Below, one piece after another: positions 14,597 to 24,455 of a stretch of DNA of 64,000 nucleotides. This DNA comes from Microtetraspora sp. NBRC 13810. GTDB lineage: Bacteria > Actinomycetota > Actinomycetes > Streptosporangiales > Streptosporangiaceae. Numbering within the stretch: the first letter of the stretch is position 1; every line of letters begins with the position of its first letter. The translations under genes were made by a program, and so were the position numbers. The DNA lies in NCBI RefSeq assembly GCF_030268685.1, contig NZ_BSRQ01000007.1, forward strand, positions 248,001-312,000, in the 5' to 3' direction. The notes under the pieces are model-generated. The model did no database searches and had not been told where the DNA came from. It saw only the letters and a program-made list of their open reading frames with translations.

Positions 14597-14959
14597 TCAG
14601 GTAGCGGACGGGACCTCGAGCGCGGCCCGTGCGGCGTCGGCCGCGTCGTGGATGGGGATGATCCGGTGCGCGCACACCAGGTTGAGCGCGTAGCGGGCGC
14701 AGGATCCGACGGGGGCGACCAGGTGCAGCCGGATGCCGAGCTGGTCGAGGTGGCGGTGGACCCGGAAGAGCGTGTTGATCCCGGCGCTGTCCAGGTAACT
14801 GGTCTGGCTCAGGTCGACGACGCAGGTCCGGCCGCCGCGCACCACGTCGCTGATGGCGTCGTGCAGTGCCGCGGTGTTGGACGCGTCGATCTCACCGTGT
14901 ACGGCGAGCTCGGCGCGGTCGGCCATGCTGTGCGAGACGAAACTGACGAGGGTGGTCAC
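14597..14959 (-). CDS. STAS-domain anti-sigma factor antagonist
   Basis: 120 residues, single STAS domain. The loop DLSQTSYLDSAGINTLF contains the Ser that an anti-sigma kinase phosphorylates and a PP2C phosphatase restores. Its ATG overlaps the stop of the large sensor gene (ATGA), so it is made in step with a protein that carries both an anti-sigma-type ATPase and a SpoIIE phosphatase. This makes it the natural partner in a partner-switching circuit. No sigma-B-type sigma gene is adjacent, so the final target is unknown. Confidence 0.93.
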   Translation of the reverse strand: MTTLVSFVSHSMADRAELAVHGEIDASNTAALHDAISDVVRGGRTCVVDLSQTSYLDSAGINTLFRVHRHLDQLGIRLHLVAPVGSCARYALNLVCAHRIIPIHDAADAARAALEVPSAT

Positions 14960-17900
14960 GACAACTCCTTACGGCGAAGTCTGCGGCGCATCTCCACCGT
15001 GGTGCCCGTCTCGTTGGCGTCGATGGTCACGACGTCCATGACGGCGCGCATCAGGGGGATCCCCCTGCCACGATCGGTGAAGCACTGGTCCTGCCAGCCA
15101 CCCTGGTCGGCGACCCGGATCATCACCTGGCCCGCGGTGATCCGTCCGTCGACGGTGATGGTCCCGGGGGCGAAGGCGTAACCGTGCTCGGCGGCGTTGG
15201 ACACCGCCTCGCTGCAGGCGAGCAGGAACTCGAACTCCTCCAGGTCGCTGAGATGCGCGGTCCTGAGCCAGTCGGCCAGGGTACGGCGCAGCTCGGCGAG
15301 GCTGCCGCTGTCGGCGGGGTAGTCGATGTGCAGGGTGAGCGGCGCGCCGCTGGTCCGCACGAGCAGCAGCGCGGTGTCGTCGTTGCGCTCCGAGCCGACG
15401 AACGCCAGCAGCAGCTGCCCGAGCTGGGGCAGGCACATGTCGAACTCGCCGAGCCGCTCGGCCAGCCGTTGCAGGCCGGTGTCGATGGGCTCGCCCCTGC
15501 GCTCCACGAGGCCGTCGGTGTAGAGCACGAGCGTCGAGCCAGGTGCCAGCCGCTCCTCGCAGGCGGTGTAGCTGTCGGGCGCGGTGATGCCCAGCGGCGG
15601 CGAGGTCGCGGGGCTCAGGTAGCCGACGGTGCCGTCGGGGTGGCGGACGATGGGCGGCGGATGGCCGGCGTTGGCGTACATCAGCGTGCCGGTCTCCAGG
15701 TGGAGCACCGCGCAGCACGCGGTGACCATGAGCTCGGGCTCCAGGGCCTCGGCCATCCGGGCCGTCCTGGCCAGCGCCTGGCCGGGGTCGTGTCCTTCCA
15801 GCAGGTAGGCGGACAGGCCGCTGCGGATCTGGCCCATCACCGCGGCGGCGGCGACGCCGTGCCCGGACACGTCGCCGATCACCAGGGCGACCCGGTCGTC
15901 CTCCAGCGGGATCAGGTCGTACCAGTCGCCGCCGATGGTGGTCTCGGAGGTGGCCGAGCAGTAGGTGGCCCAGCTGCTGATGCCCGGGACGTTGGGCAGC
16001 CGGTCGGGCAGCAGGCTGCGCTGGAGGGTCGCGGCGAGCTGGTGCTCGATGTCGAACCGGCCCGCCCGCTGCAGCGCGCACGCGCCGAGCCCGGCGATGG
16101 CGGCGAGCTCCTCCTGTTCCTCCGGGGTGAGCAGGCGGTCGCCGGGCAGGCGCACGACCAGCACGCCGAGGGAGTCGCTGCCGACCGCCATCGGCAGCAC
16201 GGCCACGCCGCGCCCGCCGGGCTCCTCGGGGACCTCGACCTGCCACAGCGGCTGGCGGTCGGCCATGACCTGGCCGGCCTCGGCGGGCGAGCGCTCGGCC
16301 CACCCGTCTCCCCTGGCCGGCCCGGCCACCGCGATCGGTTTGAGCACCCGGCCCGAGTCGGGCATGGCGACCAGGGTCGCGGCGCCGAGCACCCGCTCGG
16401 CGTGCCCGACGATGACGTCCGCCACCTGCTCGGCGGTGAGGGCGCCGGACAGCCCGGCGGTGATCTCCTGGAGCCGGGAGGTGCGCGCGGCGGCCAGCTC
16501 GACCGACCTGCGCGCCACCCGCTCGACGTGGAGCAGCCTGGCGTAGTCGAGGTGCAGTGCGAGCCGCCTGGCCAGCTCGGCGGACATGACCCGGTCCTCG
16601 CGGTCGTAGGCGGGCCGGCCCGCGGTGCCGACCAGGGTGAGGGCGCCGAGCACCCGGCCCTGCACGGTGATCGGGCTGATGATCGCGTTGGGCACGGTGC
16701 CGCACACGGGGGGCCGCGCGGCCTCGGCGGACCTGCTGTCGGCCTCCAGCCACCGGTCGAGCACCTCGTCCGGCACCTCGACCTCGGCCCGCCCGCCGTC
16801 CGCGCGGGCGTGCAGCAACTGCCACGGCCGTCCGTCGGGCCCGGCCACCTCCAGGGTGCACCGGTCGGCGAAGGCGGGGACCAGGATCGCGCCGGTACGG
16901 CTGAGCCGCTCGGCGAGCGAGTCTCCGGCGTCGAGCCCGGCGGTGACCTCGCCGAGGATGCGGTGACGCGCTTCGTTCTTCTTGCGCTCGGTGATGTCGG
17001 TGCAGGCTCCGATGAACCCGCAGAACACGCCGTCGCCGTTGACCCGGGGGACGCCCCTGGCGTGCAGCCAGCCGTAGGAGCCGTCGGCGCGCCGGTGCCG
17101 GTATTCGACGTCGAACGGCCGGCGCTGCGCGAACCCCTCCTGGTAGAGCTCGCAGGCGGCGTCCTTGTCGTCGGGGTGCACGCCGTCCGCCCAGCCGTCC
17201 GCGAGCTCCTCGTGGAAGAGCCGCCCGGTGTAGTCGAGCCAGGCCCGGTTGACGAAGTCGCAGCCGCCGGTGGTGTCGGTGGCCCACATGAGCACCGGGG
17301 CGGCGTCGGACATGAGCCGGAAGCGCTGCTCGCTCGCGTCGAGCTGGATGGCGGCCGTGCGCCGCAGCTTCGCCATGACGAGGTGCGAGCCGATCCGGGC
17401 GAGCAGCTCGGCGCTGGAGAACGGTTTGATCAGGTAGTCGTCGGCGCCGCAGGACAGGCCCTCCACCGCGGCCTCCTCACCGGCCCGGGCGGACAGCAGG
17501 ACGACGGGCAGCGTCTCGGTGAGCGGGTCGGCGCGCAGCTCCCTGACCAGGTCCAGGCCGTCCATCCCGGGCAGCGTCACGTCGACGAGCACCAGGCAGA
17601 AGTCGCCCGCCCTGATCAGGTCGAGGGCCTCCCTGGCGCCGCCGACCGCACTGGTCCTCCAGTGCTCGCCGAGGATGCGCTGCAGGTAGGAGCACATGTC
17701 GGCGCTGTCGTCCACGATCAGGATGTGCTCCTCGCCGGGGCCCTCCAGCGCGGGCTGCGGCGTCATGCCGGCCATCCGCTCCTCAAGGATCGGCAGCCCC
17801 TCGTCGGCGAGCCAGCGCCTGATCTCGGCGACGAAGAGCGGCGCGGACATCGCCTTGAAGGAGACCCGGGAGGTGTGCTCGCGCACCTGGCCGGGCGGCA

Positions 17901-19632
17901 GGTGGGCGTGACCGCGGGGCAGGGTGACGGTGAAGGTGCTGCCGCGGCCGAGCGCGCTGGCCACGACCACCTCGCCGCCGTGCAGCTCGACGAGGTCGCG
18001 GACCAGGGCCAGCCCGATCCCGGAGCCCTCCGCGGCGCGCCCGGCGGGGTTGCGCACCTGGTGGAAGCGCTCGAAGACGTGCGGCACCTCCTCCGGCGGG
18101 ATGCCCGCGCCGGTGTCGGCGACGACCAGCCGGCAGTGCCGGTCGGTCAGCCGGACGCTGACCGAGACGCGGCCGGCCCCGGTGTGCTTGAGCGCGTTGG
18201 AGAGCAGGTTGAGGATGATCTTCTCCCACAGGCCCGGGTCGACGTAGACGTCGGGGGGCAGCGCGGGACAGTCGACGACGAGGTCGAGGCCGGCCTCCTC
18301 GGCCGCGGAGCGGAACATCCCGGCCAGCTCGGCGGTGACGGTGGACACGTCGACGGGCTCGAAGGACGCCGACATCCGGCCGGCCTCGATGCGGGAGAAG
18401 TCGAGCAGCGTGTTGACCAGCCGCAGCATGCGCAGCGCGCTGTGCTCGACCACCTCGAGGTCGGAGCGGTCGGGGTCGTCCTCCGCCATCCTGGCGAGGA
18501 CCTGCTGCAACGGGCCGAGCATCAGCGTGAGCGGGGTGCGGAACTCGTGGCTGATGTCGCTGAAGAACACGGTCTTCGCGTGGTCGATCTGGGACAGCGC
18601 CTCGGCCCGCCCGACCGCGTCCCTGCGCGCCTGGGCCTTGGCCGCCGCGGCGGCGACGGTCTCGGCGAACAGGTCGACGAAGCCACGGTAGTCGGCGTCG
18701 AACGCCGCGTTGGGGCTCAGGCCGGCCACCATGACGAGGGGGCCGTCGTCCCCCTGGCCGGGCAGCGGCAGCACGCGGGCGCGTTTCGGGTCGCCGACGA
18801 CGCCGGGCGCGACCCAGCCCCTCGTCCTGCGGCCGAGCCGGTCCACCGTACGGCCGGCCTGGGCGGCGGCCACCTCGGCCAGCGGCCACCCGGCCGGGTC
18901 GCACAGCGCCTGCGGGTCACCGGCGCACTCGACGCCGGAGGCGGCGATCAGCTCGGACGGCGCCGAGTCGTCGGCGGACACCCGGAAGAGCAGCACGAAG
19001 GGCAGGTCGGGGCTGTCCTCCACCACGTGGACCGCGCTCAGGCAGGCGTCCTGCGGCGTCTCGCCCTCTCCCGCGCGCTCGGCGACGTCGCGCACGAGTT
19101 GCAGCCTGCGCCTCGCCTGCACCCGGCGGGTGGTCTCGAAGCAGGCGCAGAAGACGCCGCCCACGGTGCCGTCGTCGTCGGGCGCGGGACTGTGGGAGAA
19201 GGTGAAGAACGTCTCCTCGACGAAGCCGCCGCGCCGCAGCCACAGGAGATGGTCCTCGACGTAGTTGGCCCGGCCCGTGGCGAGGACGCCGGTGAACATC
19301 GGGCCCACGACGTCCCAGATCTCGGACCAGCACTCGGCGGCGGGCTGGACCAGCGCCTGGGGATGCTTGTTCTCACCCAGGATCGGGCGGTAGGCGTCGT
19401 TGTAGAACTGGTAGAGCTCTTTGCCCCAGAACACGAACATGGGGACCCGCGAGCCGAGGACGATCCTCACCGCGATCTTCAGACTGTCCGGCCATCCCTC
19501 CGGAGGGCCGAGGGGCGTGCCCGTCCAGTCGTGCTCGCGCATATAACGCGCCATCTCGCCCTCTCCGGCGAACAACGCGTCGCGAAGCACGTGATCCTCT
19601 TGGGCGCGGCTTGAGAGCGGTCGTGCGAACAT
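14956..19632 (-). CDS. multi-domain hybrid sensor: PAS, histidine kinase, receiver, PAS, GAF, SpoIIE phosphatase, anti-sigma ATPase
   Basis: 1558 residues, no membrane segment, so a soluble integrator. In order: PAS-like sensor (about 30-170), GAF-like region (180-335), HisKA with SHEFRTP and phospho-acceptor His362, HATPase (450-575; NLLSNALKHT, DTGAGIPP, GSGIGLAL), receiver (636-755; IVDDSAD, phospho-Asp684 in LVDVTLPGMDG, IKPF), PAS with PAC (765-885), GAF (890-1035), second GAF (1050-1190), SpoIIE/PP2C phosphatase (1200-1428; GGDWYD at 1234-1239, GDVSGHG at 1253-1259), and RsbW-like ATPase (1430-1550; EAVSNAAEHGY, DRGRGIPLM). It can phosphorylate and dephosphorylate proteins by two chemistries. 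The STAS gene overlaps its end. The long upstream region may hold its promoter. Confidence 0.95.
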   Translation of the reverse strand: MFARPLSSRAQEDHVLRDALFAGEGEMARYMREHDWTGTPLGPPEGWPDSLKIAVRIVLGSRVPMFVFWGKELYQFYNDAYRPILGENKHPQALVQPAAECWSEIWDVVGPMFTGVLATGRANYVEDHLLWLRRGGFVEETFFTFSHSPAPDDDGTVGGVFCACFETTRRVQARRRLQLVRDVAERAGEGETPQDACLSAVHVVEDSPDLPFVLLFRVSADDSAPSELIAASGVECAGDPQALCDPAGWPLAEVAAAQAGRTVDRLGRRTRGWVAPGVVGDPKRARVLPLPGQGDDGPLVMVAGLSPNAAFDADYRGFVDLFAETVAAAAAKAQARRDAVGRAEALSQIDHAKTVFFSDISHEFRTPLTLMLGPLQQVLARMAEDDPDRSDLEVVEHSALRMLRLVNTLLDFSRIEAGRMSASFEPVDVSTVTAELAGMFRSAAEEAGLDLVVDCPALPPDVYVDPGLWEKIILNLLSNALKHTGAGRVSVSVRLTDRHCRLVVADTGAGIPPEEVPHVFERFHQVRNPAGRAAEGSGIGLALVRDLVELHGGEVVVASALGRGSTFTVTLPRGHAHLPPGQVREHTSRVSFKAMSAPLFVAEIRRWLADEGLPILEERMAGMTPQPALEGPGEEHILIVDDSADMCSYLQRILGEHWRTSAVGGAREALDLIRAGDFCLVLVDVTLPGMDGLDLVRELRADPLTETLPVVLLSARAGEEAAVEGLSCGADDYLIKPFSSAELLARIGSHLVMAKLRRTAAIQLDASEQRFRLMSDAAPVLMWATDTTGGCDFVNRAWLDYTGRLFHEELADGWADGVHPDDKDAACELYQEGFAQRRPFDVEYRHRRADGSYGWLHARGVPRVNGDGVFCGFIGACTDITERKKNEARHRILGEVTAGLDAGDSLAERLSRTGAILVPAFADRCTLEVAGPDGRPWQLLHARADGGRAEVEVPDEVLDRWLEADSRSAEAARPPVCGTVPNAIISPITVQGRVLGALTLVGTAGRPAYDREDRVMSAELARRLALHLDYARLLHVERVARRSVELAAARTSRLQEITAGLSGALTAEQVADVIVGHAERVLGAATLVAMPDSGRVLKPIAVAGPARGDGWAERSPAEAGQVMADRQPLWQVEVPEEPGGRGVAVLPMAVGSDSLGVLVVRLPGDRLLTPEEQEELAAIAGLGACALQRAGRFDIEHQLAATLQRSLLPDRLPNVPGISSWATYCSATSETTIGGDWYDLIPLEDDRVALVIGDVSGHGVAAAAVMGQIRSGLSAYLLEGHDPGQALARTARMAEALEPELMVTACCAVLHLETGTLMYANAGHPPPIVRHPDGTVGYLSPATSPPLGITAPDSYTACEERLAPGSTLVLYTDGLVERRGEPIDTGLQRLAERLGEFDMCLPQLGQLLLAFVGSERNDDTALLLVRTSGAPLTLHIDYPADSGSLAELRRTLADWLRTAHLSDLEEFEFLLACSEAVSNAAEHGYAFAPGTITVDGRITAGQVMIRVADQGGWQDQCFTDRGRGIPLMRAVMDVVTIDANETGTTVEMRRRLRRKELS

Positions 19633-20509: not shown

Positions 20510-20820
20510 GCGGGCCGGAATGAGCGGCCCGGCCGGGCCCCGGGGCTCGGGGTCTCGGGACGGGCGGATTTTCTCCGTCAAGGCCGGAGGTGGGGATGAC
20601 GCGGGGCCCGCTTGACGAAAAGTGGCCCCGGGTAAAGCGGCGATGATCCAACCAGAGGTGCCTTTTAGAAGTATTTAACCGGCTATGCCGGAATAACGGT
20701 TTAGTAAGACCCCCCAAAGGTCGGACAGAATCCGTTGAAGCCACTTTTACCGATATGTCTGCCCTCAGGTGGTATTGTCCGAATTGGCAGTTCAAGAAAG
20801 CCATCCAAGGGGGGATTCCA
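20510..20820. other. 311-bp leader region before the CGC peptide gene
   Basis: No ORF of note. After about 20640 the sequence becomes unusually AT-rich for the window. TTGACG at 20613-20618 with TAAAGC 15 bases on, and TATTGT near 20774, are weak promoter candidates. A small CCGGCTATGCCGG hairpin lies near 20681. The region likely holds the promoter and a long 5' leader of the peptide gene. Confidence 0.45.
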
Positions 20821-20952
20821 ATGACTGTCAACAAGCTCTTCCCGACCAGCTTCGATTCTTGGGGTTGGGGCGGCTGCGGTTGCCGCCGTCGCCGGTGCGG
20901 TTGTCGTCGTCGCTGGTGTGGCTGCGGCGGCTGGGGCGGCGGCTGGTGGTAA
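20821..20952 (+). CDS. 43-residue Cys/Arg/Gly/Trp-rich peptide with three CGC heptads (putative RiPP precursor or metal-binding peptide)
   Basis: Starts at ATG behind a very strong site (AAGGGGGGA, 5 bases). Residues 1-18 look like a leader (MTVNKLFPTSFDSWGWGG). From residue 19 come three heptads, each opening with CGC: CGCRRRR, CGCRRRW, CGCGGWG, then GGWW at the end. Six Cys (19, 21, 26, 28, 33, 35), seven Arg and six Trp in 43 residues. The 21-bp DNA units differ mostly at synonymous third positions (TGC/TGT, CGC/CGT), which points to selection on the protein. An intrinsic terminator follows, then an ABC exporter gene. No modification enzyme is adjacent. Alternatives are a secreted cationic antimicrobial peptide or a metallothionein-like peptide. 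I know of no named family. Confidence 0.72.
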   Translation: MTVNKLFPTSFDSWGWGGCGCRRRRCGCRRRWCGCGGWGGGWW

Positions 20953-20961
20953 CCAACTGAG

Positions 20962-21000
20962 GAGAGCCGGCGGGCTGCGAGCCCGCCGGCTCTCTTCTTT
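20962..21000 (+). terminator. strong intrinsic terminator or attenuator after the peptide gene
   Basis: Perfect 15-bp stem (20962-20976 with 20980-20994), GCG loop, then TTCTTT. It starts ten bases after the peptide stop codon. Partial read-through would give a high peptide-to-exporter ratio, as in many precursor-exporter operons. Confidence 0.88.
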
Positions 21001-21068
21001 CCCCGGCCCGGTACGCCCGGGCCGGGGCCGCCTGGAACACCTGAGGAAGCCGACTGAGAGGAACCATC

Positions 21069-22850
21069 GTGCGACCGCTAGAAGGAGAAGCCCCCGAATC
21101 CACAGAGCCCCCCGTCGCCCCCATCGTGTCCCTGCGGACCACCGTGAAGCGATTCTGGCCGGACACCCGCGGCAGCCGCCTGCTCTTCGCGGCGGGCGTG
21201 GCGTTCGCCCTCGTCGCGGCCGTCTGCGAGGTCGCGGCCATCGGATTGTTCGGCGTCATCACCGACAGGGTCCTGGCGAGTAAGGACCTGGGCGCCTTCT
21301 GGACCCCCGCCGGCTTCTGGCTGGCGCTGACGATGATCGCCGCGCTCGTGGCCTTCTGCGGCGCCTACGTCACGGCGCTGGGCGGCGAGCGTTTCGTACT
21401 CGGCCTGCGGGACAAGGTGTTCGCGCACATCCAGCGGCTGACCCCGGACTCCCTGGACAACCGCAAGCTCGGCGACCTCATGGCGAGGCTCACCGACGAC
21501 GTCGAGGCGATCGAGAACCTCGTCGGGTCCGGCCTGGTCAAGCTGATCACCACGCTCGCCAGCGTGGTCTTCTTCGCGGGCGCGGCCTTCTACATCCGCT
21601 GGGACCTCGCCCTGGTGACGCTGGCCCTGCTGCCCGCCTTCCTGGTGGTCTCCAAGCTGTTCGCGGCGAAGTTCCGGTTCGCGGCGGCGCGCGAGCGGGC
21701 CAGCAACGGCAACATGAACAGCGTCATCGAGCAGAGCCTGTCCAACCAGTACCTCGTCCAGGCGCACAACCGGCAGGACACCGAGGCCGAGCGGCTGCAC
21801 GCCGAAGGACGCACCTGGCTGCGCGCGAACATGGCCCAGGCCAAGCTGTCGTCGATGTACGGCCCCGCCATGCAGGTCATCGAGACCGTCTGCCTGCTCG
21901 TCATCCTCGGCGTCGGCGCCTGGGAGATCGCGGCCGGGCGGCTGACCATCGGCGGACTGCTCGCCTTCGCGGCCTACCTCGCCTACCTCTACCCCGCCGT
22001 GCAGAACCTCGGCGAGCTGGCGCTCGTCGTGTCGGAGGCGGCGGCGGGCTCGGACCGGGTGATCGAGATGCTGCGCGCGCAGCCGGCCGTGACCGACCGG
22101 GAAGGGGCGAAGCCGCCCGCCACCGGGACGTGCCGGGGGCGTATCGAGTTCGAGGGGGTCGGGTTCACGTATCCGGACAGGTCGGTGCCGACGCTGGCGG
22201 ACCTGACCTTCGCCGCGGGCACCGGCGACCTCGTCACCTGCACCGGCCCGAGCGGGGCGGGCAAGTCGACCGTCGCCAAGCTGCTGCTGCGGTTCTACGA
22301 CCCGTCCGCCGGGCGGATCCTGCTCGACGGGGTGGACATCAGGGACGTGCCGCGCTGGTGGCTGCGCGAGAACATCACCGTGCTCCAGCAGGAGAACCTG
22401 CTCTTCTCCGGCACCGTGCGGGACAACATCGCCTACGGCCGCAGGGACGCGAGCATGGAGGACGTCGTCCGGGCCGCCGTCATGGCCGACGCGCACGATT
22501 TCGTCAGCGCGCTGCCCCAGGGCTACGACACGCCCGTCGGGCAGCGCGGCCGGCTGCTCTCCGGCGGCCAGCGCCAGCGTCTCGCCATCGCCCGCGCCCT
22601 GCTGCGGAACGCGCCCGTGCTGGTCCTGGACGAGCCCATGACCGGGCTCGACGCCCGCTCGGCGGCGCGCATCATGGAGCCGCTGCGCCGGCTGATGGAC
22701 GGGCGCACCACCTTCCTGATCACGCACGACCTGAGCGCGATGCCCGAGGCCGCGCACACCCTGGTGCTCCCTGGACCCGCCGCGACCGAGGCCCGCCGGC
22801 AGGAGGCCGCCGCGTCGCAGCCGTCGGGCGCGGGCGCGAACTCGCTGTGA
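21069..22850 (+). CDS. ABC transporter, fused permease-ATPase (exporter type)
   Basis: 593 residues, GTG start with GAGAGGA upstream. Six membrane segments in the first 330 residues (such as LLFAAGVAFALVAAVCEVAA, FWLALTMIAALVAFCGAYVT, LLVILGVGAWEIAA). The ATPase domain has Walker A GPSGAGKST near residue 392, Q-loop VLQQENLLFSG, signature LSGGQRQRLAIARALL near 496, Walker B VLVLDEPMTGLD near 517 and H-loop ITHDL. Half-transporter type, so it works as a dimer. There is no N-terminal C39 peptidase domain, so leader removal, if any, must be by another protease. Placement directly after the CGC peptide gene suggests peptide export; substrate unproven. Confidence 0.93.
   Translation: MRPLEGEAPESTEPPVAPIVSLRTTVKRFWPDTRGSRLLFAAGVAFALVAAVCEVAAIGLFGVITDRVLASKDLGAFWTPAGFWLALTMIAALVAFCGAYVTALGGERFVLGLRDKVFAHIQRLTPDSLDNRKLGDLMARLTDDVEAIENLVGSGLVKLITTLASVVFFAGAAFYIRWDLALVTLALLPAFLVVSKLFAAKFRFAAARERASNGNMNSVIEQSLSNQYLVQAHNRQDTEAERLHAEGRTWLRANMAQAKLSSMYGPAMQVIETVCLLVILGVGAWEIAAGRLTIGGLLAFAAYLAYLYPAVQNLGELALVVSEAAAGSDRVIEMLRAQPAVTDREGAKPPATGTCRGRIEFEGVGFTYPDRSVPTLADLTFAAGTGDLVTCTGPSGAGKSTVAKLLLRFYDPSAGRILLDGVDIRDVPRWWLRENITVLQQENLLFSGTVRDNIAYGRRDASMEDVVRAAVMADAHDFVSALPQGYDTPVGQRGRLLSGGQRQRLAIARALLRNAPVLVLDEPMTGLDARSAARIMEPLRRLMDGRTTFLITHDLSAMPEAAHTLVLPGPAATEARRQEAAASQPSGAGANSL

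Positions 22851-23087: not shown

Positions 23088-24455
<1,368 letters not shown>

Follow-up and report, generated by a model that had tools for sequence, protein, structure and literature searches.

Leaderless bacteriocins, such as aureocin A53 and lacticin Q and the examples from actinomycetes (PMC11580447), are short, highly cationic, Trp-containing peptides made without a leader, with ABC transporter genes located nearby; a compact helical (saposin-like) fold is expected of aureocin A53-like members. In the BmrB-BmrC/BmrD system of Bacillus subtilis, a small ORF, an intrinsic-terminator-like hairpin, and an ABC exporter follow each other in one operon, the hairpin being located inside the bmrB ORF (PMC4191407). 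Exporters of double-glycine leader systems carry a C39 peptidase domain. Indolicidin and proline-rich antimicrobial peptides are eukaryotic host-defense peptides, R/W-rich and P/K-rich, respectively, and are unrelated to the family described below.

Here, we describe a gene pair from Microtetraspora sp. NBRC 13810. It is contained in the window, by which we mean the whole stretch of 64,000 nucleotides that was analyzed and to which all coordinates refer. The pair and the sequence elements around it are the following:

20770-20779, + strand: extended −10-like promoter element TGGTATTGTC, 51 nt upstream of the peptide ATG, based on a family motif count
20807-20814, + strand: Shine-Dalgarno sequence AAGGGGGG of the peptide gene, seen in the sequence; strong Shine-Dalgarno sequences are found family-wide
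20821-20952, + strand: gene of a polycationic R/W/G/C-rich peptide, 43 amino acids plus stop, based on the sequence, homologues located 5' of orthologous exporters, and pN/pS
20959-20997, + strand: RNA hairpin with an 18-bp stem and a 3-nt loop, based on folding, conservation in the family, and compensatory changes
21056-21063, + strand: Shine-Dalgarno sequence GAGAGGAA of the exporter gene, seen in the sequence, the gene being classed as having its own start with a Shine-Dalgarno sequence
21069-22850, + strand: half-size ABC exporter (transmembrane and nucleotide-binding domains) without a peptidase domain, based on matches to PF00664 (9e-46) and PF00005 (9e-30) and on orthologues

The peptide gene starts with an ATG at 20821 and ends with a TAA at 20950-20952; its product, MTVNKLFPTSFDSWGWGGCGCRRRRCGCRRRWCGCGGWGGGWW, contains 6 Cys, 7 Arg, and 6 Trp residues. 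An earlier note, made from the letters of this DNA, had described a 43-codon gene with a strong ribosome binding site, and this is borne out, as are the CGC motifs that it placed at residues 19, 26, and 33. Its further statement that the CGC heptads differ mainly at synonymous positions holds for units 1 and 2 (two synonymous changes and one Arg-to-Trp change), but fails for unit 3, in which most of the last four residues are different. No named family was found for the peptide, in line with the note: neither Pfam nor NCBIfam gave a match for it or for 31 other members of the family, and literature searches returned no description of such a peptide-exporter family. AlphaFold predicts the window peptide to be unstructured (pLDDT 51, no secondary structure), at a confidence that is low and for a low-complexity peptide.

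The product of the exporter gene matches PF00664 and PF00005 only (plus generic AAA overlaps), without a C39 peptidase domain, which agrees with the half-size ABC exporter that had been noted next to the peptide gene. The gene starts with GTG, and the protein presumably works as a homodimer. Directly 3' of it, at 23100-24455, lies a gene for a glycoside hydrolase of family 6 that looks secreted and has a CBM2 module as well as a (TPTV)n linker. On the other side, the minus strand at 14956-19632 encodes a 1558 aa protein that appears by eye to be a hybrid sensor kinase/response regulator with PAS-GAF and SpoIIE-type phosphatase parts.

When 151 genomes from this bacterial family were scanned with the peptide, two further full-length homologues came up, each directly 5' of an exporter that shares 75% identity with the window exporter over the transmembrane part; several low-scoring matches (L010-L014) are located in unrelated frames and were discarded. 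With the exporter as bait, 77 named orthologous loci were collected from Streptosporangium, Nonomuraea, Microtetraspora, Planotetraspora, Sinosporangium, Spongiactinospora, Thermocatellispora, Thermoactinospora, and Actinomadura. (The 11.85-Mb Nonomuraea gerenzanensis record NZ_LT559118.1, locus L161, is listed as "plasmid I" in a plasmid collection, but its size suggests a chromosome.) In whole-genome searches, 99 of the 343 genomes available for the bacterial family contained an exporter orthologue at E < 1e-130, with just one more between 1e-130 and 1e-95; the orthologues therefore form a discrete group, the exact counts varying with the E-value cut-offs and the score distribution within the family being clearly bimodal. 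At the class level, seven genomes of one genus with 8-11 Mb genomes, for which "Streptomyces-like" is a tentative label, and one other genome were found at E values of 1e-90 to 1e-110. Upstream of the most distant exporter relative, L160 (G504:C166), there is a divergent small ORF on the opposite strand with a His/Arg/Lys-rich start, MSHHHGRRHRRPKKKP..., which may be a rearranged version of the module.

A small ORF, nearly always cationic, is located directly 5' of the exporter in all 94 loci inspected (87 from the family and 7 Streptomyces-like), as the earlier pairing of the peptide gene with a dedicated exporter had led one to expect. The set comprises 76 named loci and the window, inspected by script, L085, inspected by eye, 9 additional family genomes, and the 7 Streptomyces-like ones, and some of the named loci and additional genomes may represent the same species. 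By a fixed criterion, 75 of 77 family exporter regions pass, versus none of 441 control upstream regions, so the pairing is not due to chance; both controls and criteria were picked after the first homologues were known. Other neighbors of the peptide gene are genus-specific. Within ~5 kb in 79 loci, no modification-enzyme cluster recurs and only the exporter is shared across genera, which extends to the family the observation that no modification enzyme is adjacent in the window. No immunity gene other than the exporter was found.

Two peptide genes have no full exporter beside them. In G329, a second peptide gene with its promoter element and hairpin, the latter containing a compensated pair, stands alone and is followed by a truncated exporter remnant, while in G063 a diverged second copy, which also has its promoter element and hairpin, precedes an unrelated regulator gene. 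Tandem peptide genes with one exporter occur in G153 and in the Streptomyces-like genome G461 (L153), where the two genes have no hairpin between them.

The 94 peptides are 30-66 aa long, with a median net charge of +10; Streptomyces-like peptides reach 68 aa, with charges of +8 to +15. Most of the family have R/W/G/C-rich cores (29% Arg, 24% Gly, 19% Trp, 13% Cys), but K/P-rich cores are found in Actinomadura and its relatives and a G/F/H/R-rich one in G065, and the Streptomyces-like genus has cores rich in K/P/A, R/Y, or RGG/Y. Three members, two from Sinosporangium and the one from G065, have almost zero net charge. The two Sinosporangium peptides (L061 and L073) contain a DDDD stretch and are the main exceptions to the polycationic composition. 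The pattern MSFxKhxP/MTFxKLFP is present at the N-terminus of 49 of 87 family members, of 7 of 8 Streptomyces-like peptides, and of both orphans. In one large Nonomuraea clade, the N-terminus is of another type (e.g., MANTQLSQxGYQ). Since the part common to distant peptide types is only about the first 8 residues, the leader-like region that the note had extended to residue 18 is not upheld. The CGC heptad, likewise, is not a conserved unit: the three-unit array occurs in the window peptide only (1 of 94), CGC-x4-CGC was seen in one other family peptide, and the heptad was ruled out on these grounds. Nor do cysteines in general qualify as the functional unit, as 13 of 94 members lack Cys and 52 of 94 have an odd number of them, so a general metal-binding or thioether RiPP role is unsupported.

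Within-clade comparisons gave pN/pS values of 0-0.35 in 11 of 12 informative clades, values that depend on amino-acid-guided alignment of low-complexity sequence; the remaining clade, from Actinomadura, gave 1.31 based on very few synonymous changes. Selection at the protein level, which had been suspected from the window alone, is thereby corroborated. Exporter ratios of ~1 in the same analysis are an artefact of ungapped comparison of shifted sequences and should be disregarded. Codon usage of the peptide genes was considered as a sign of high expression: CGT and GGT are raised, while CGG and GGG are lowered, but an increase is seen for A/T-ending codons in general. Judged from the sequences, the family retains a positive charge, low complexity, and purifying selection, and many of its members share the N-terminal MSFxKhxP-like motif as well.

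Upstream of the peptide genes, TGNTANNGTC is present within 130 nt in 52 of 79 family loci, compared to ~1% of shuffles. A GTCAA/GTTAAA box lies exactly 51-52 nt upstream of TGNTANNGTC in 34 of the 36 loci that have both and looks like a putative binding site of a shared regulator. At this fixed spacing the box is found in most Nonomuraea loci, e.g., L034 and L047. The window retains the TGNTANNGTC-type element at 20770-20779 and is missing a clear box; a standard promoter scan of the window found no promoter.

The hairpin between the two genes had been taken for a 15-bp intrinsic terminator. A strong hairpin is indeed there (−38.5 kcal/mol, z −7.9), but its stem has 18 rather than 15 bp and its U-tract is weak (tail TTTCCCC). 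Within the 9-Mb genome of the window, the exact stem pattern is found a single time, and the stem shows compensatory changes over 30 distinct versions. An Rfam search with the hairpin gave sub-threshold matches only. Actinomadura hairpins have a good U-tract, and those of Planotetraspora and Microtetraspora a poor one; the element is probably a terminator or an mRNA 3' end.

The layout of two genes separated by a terminator applies to the window, which is of a minority type with an independent exporter start, but not to most relatives. For 62 of 77 loci, no start with a Shine-Dalgarno sequence is present in the exporter frame from the hairpin up to the first transmembrane region; the frame is open through the hairpin, and the plausible starts are GTG codons that lie, in the −1 frame, within the final codons of the peptide gene. 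Because these overlapping GTG codons are the sole plausible starts, the exporter appears to be translationally coupled to the peptide gene, and the hairpin usually lies inside the exporter coding sequence, where it may cause partial termination or form an mRNA 3' end. If the penultimate codon of the peptide gene specifies Gly, GGG is used in 18 of 19 cases, compared to 40 of 590 Gly codons elsewhere, and the overlapping GTG is thereby kept; only Sinosporangium L061, judged by codon pattern, deviates, and its exporter start is located far downstream. A programmed −1 frameshift fusing peptide and exporter was considered and judged less likely: inspection by eye showed no slippery motif, and preservation of the GTG accounts better for the GGG bias.

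The reading that we favor, with moderate confidence, is that of an undescribed two-gene module in which a polycationic, disordered, leaderless, and probably unmodified peptide is exported by a dedicated half-size ABC transporter, an antimicrobial role being plausible. The peptide would have a promoter of its own and would probably be expressed more strongly than the exporter, and the conserved hairpin would end or protect the short peptide mRNA and limit read-through. In most relatives, where the GTG overlaps the last Trp/Gly codons, the exporter would be made only by ribosomes just finishing the peptide. The exporter would then move the peptide out without a cleaved double-Gly leader and probably without modification, with the short N-terminus as the likely recognition signal. 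As there is no peptidase domain and no recurring tailoring enzyme, and as disorder is predicted, an unmodified or lightly modified polycation exported whole is the simplest reading. Outside the cell, the peptide may act as a membrane- or polyanion-active cation, most plausibly as an antimicrobial comparable to leaderless bacteriocins and to antimicrobial peptides of the R/W- or P/K-rich kind; the producer would at the same time be protected by the export. Antimicrobial activity, polyanion surface binding, and signaling would look the same in these sequences, and the variability of the cores makes one shared target hard to specify. We also put forward, more tentatively, the possibility that unmodified disordered polycations of this kind are widespread, with charge and a short N-terminal export tag conserved while the cores switch freely (R/W/C, K/P/A, R/Y, RGG/Y); the ABC exporter would recognize its substrate by composition, and its translation would be slaved to the substrate by the overlapping start.

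By analogy with BmrB-BmrC/BmrD (PMC4191407), the small ORF might instead be the leader peptide of a ribosome-mediated attenuator, in which stalling on the Arg/Trp/Pro-rich chain relieves the terminator and turns on a multidrug exporter. The order of small ORF, hairpin, and ABC exporter in one operon is the same, the composition of the peptides is prone to stalling, and translational coupling of the two genes is compatible with such control. A leader would, however, always be found upstream of the regulated gene, and the two orphan units of G329 and G063 are intact and have no exporter, the first retaining a compensated stem pair next to an exporter remnant; tandem peptide genes served by a single exporter are also at odds with it. 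Moreover, complementarity between the peptide gene and the 5' arm of the hairpin, the one antiterminator pairing evaluated, stayed at the level of synonymous shuffles (z −0.10 ± 0.12), the hairpin follows the stop codon, unlike that of bmrB, and the U-tract is poor in many members. The lack of an antiterminator signal, the orphan units, and the tandem peptides favor a gene product over a cis-acting leader. We consider the attenuator unlikely, and grant it what probability it has because there are just two orphan copies, which could be in decay.

Overlapping starts and near-universal pairing would equally suit a stoichiometric complex in which the peptide, like AcrZ or CydX in their membrane complexes, stays with the exporter as a small regulatory subunit and the substrate is another molecule. 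This is quite improbable, given that the peptides are hydrophilic polycations without a membrane helix, that their cores are hypervariable while the exporter membrane domain is ~70-75% identical, and that orphan peptide copies exist. Cys- and Trp-rich cores, a short conserved N-terminus, and a dedicated exporter could also belong to a RiPP precursor that is modified, e.g., on its Cys/Trp-rich core, by enzymes encoded elsewhere and then exported. To this we assign very little weight: a conserved modification gene is absent from the ~5-kb surroundings of the 79 loci, 13 of 94 members are free of Cys, the K/P types have no typical modifiable core, and a leader-like extension is absent.

If the peptide is exported, as we favor, the family would represent a hidden class of actinomycete secreted peptides, devoid of the enzymes and domain matches used for RiPP and bacteriocin mining, and would provide ~100 natural R/W- and K/P-rich cationic variants, each with its own exporter and presumed self-protection. 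It would also make it possible to test how an ABC exporter handles substrates in which charge, and not sequence, is conserved. If the peptide is not exported, control of a transporter through a small overlapping ORF with so strict a linkage to it would be unusual in itself.

Compared to known systems, the module differs from double-glycine exporters in that the C39 domain is theirs and is not carried by the window exporter. Its likeness to R/W- and P/K-rich host-defense peptides is one of composition only (Arg/Trp-rich ends, Lys/Pro-rich chains, disordered polycations). From leaderless bacteriocins, whose published account in actinomycetes (PMC11580447) mentions neither "Streptosporang" nor "Nonomuraea" in its text, the family is set apart by a hypervariable low-complexity core, a disorder predicted, at low confidence, in place of a fold, and one half-size exporter as the only companion; since the peptide matches no known bacteriocin family, membership is not claimed. 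What is shared is a short, highly cationic, leaderless, and Trp-containing product, and an ABC-type transporter that adjoins the peptide gene everywhere inspected except at the two orphan copies. Leaderless bacteriocins offer the closest functional analogy to the module described here.
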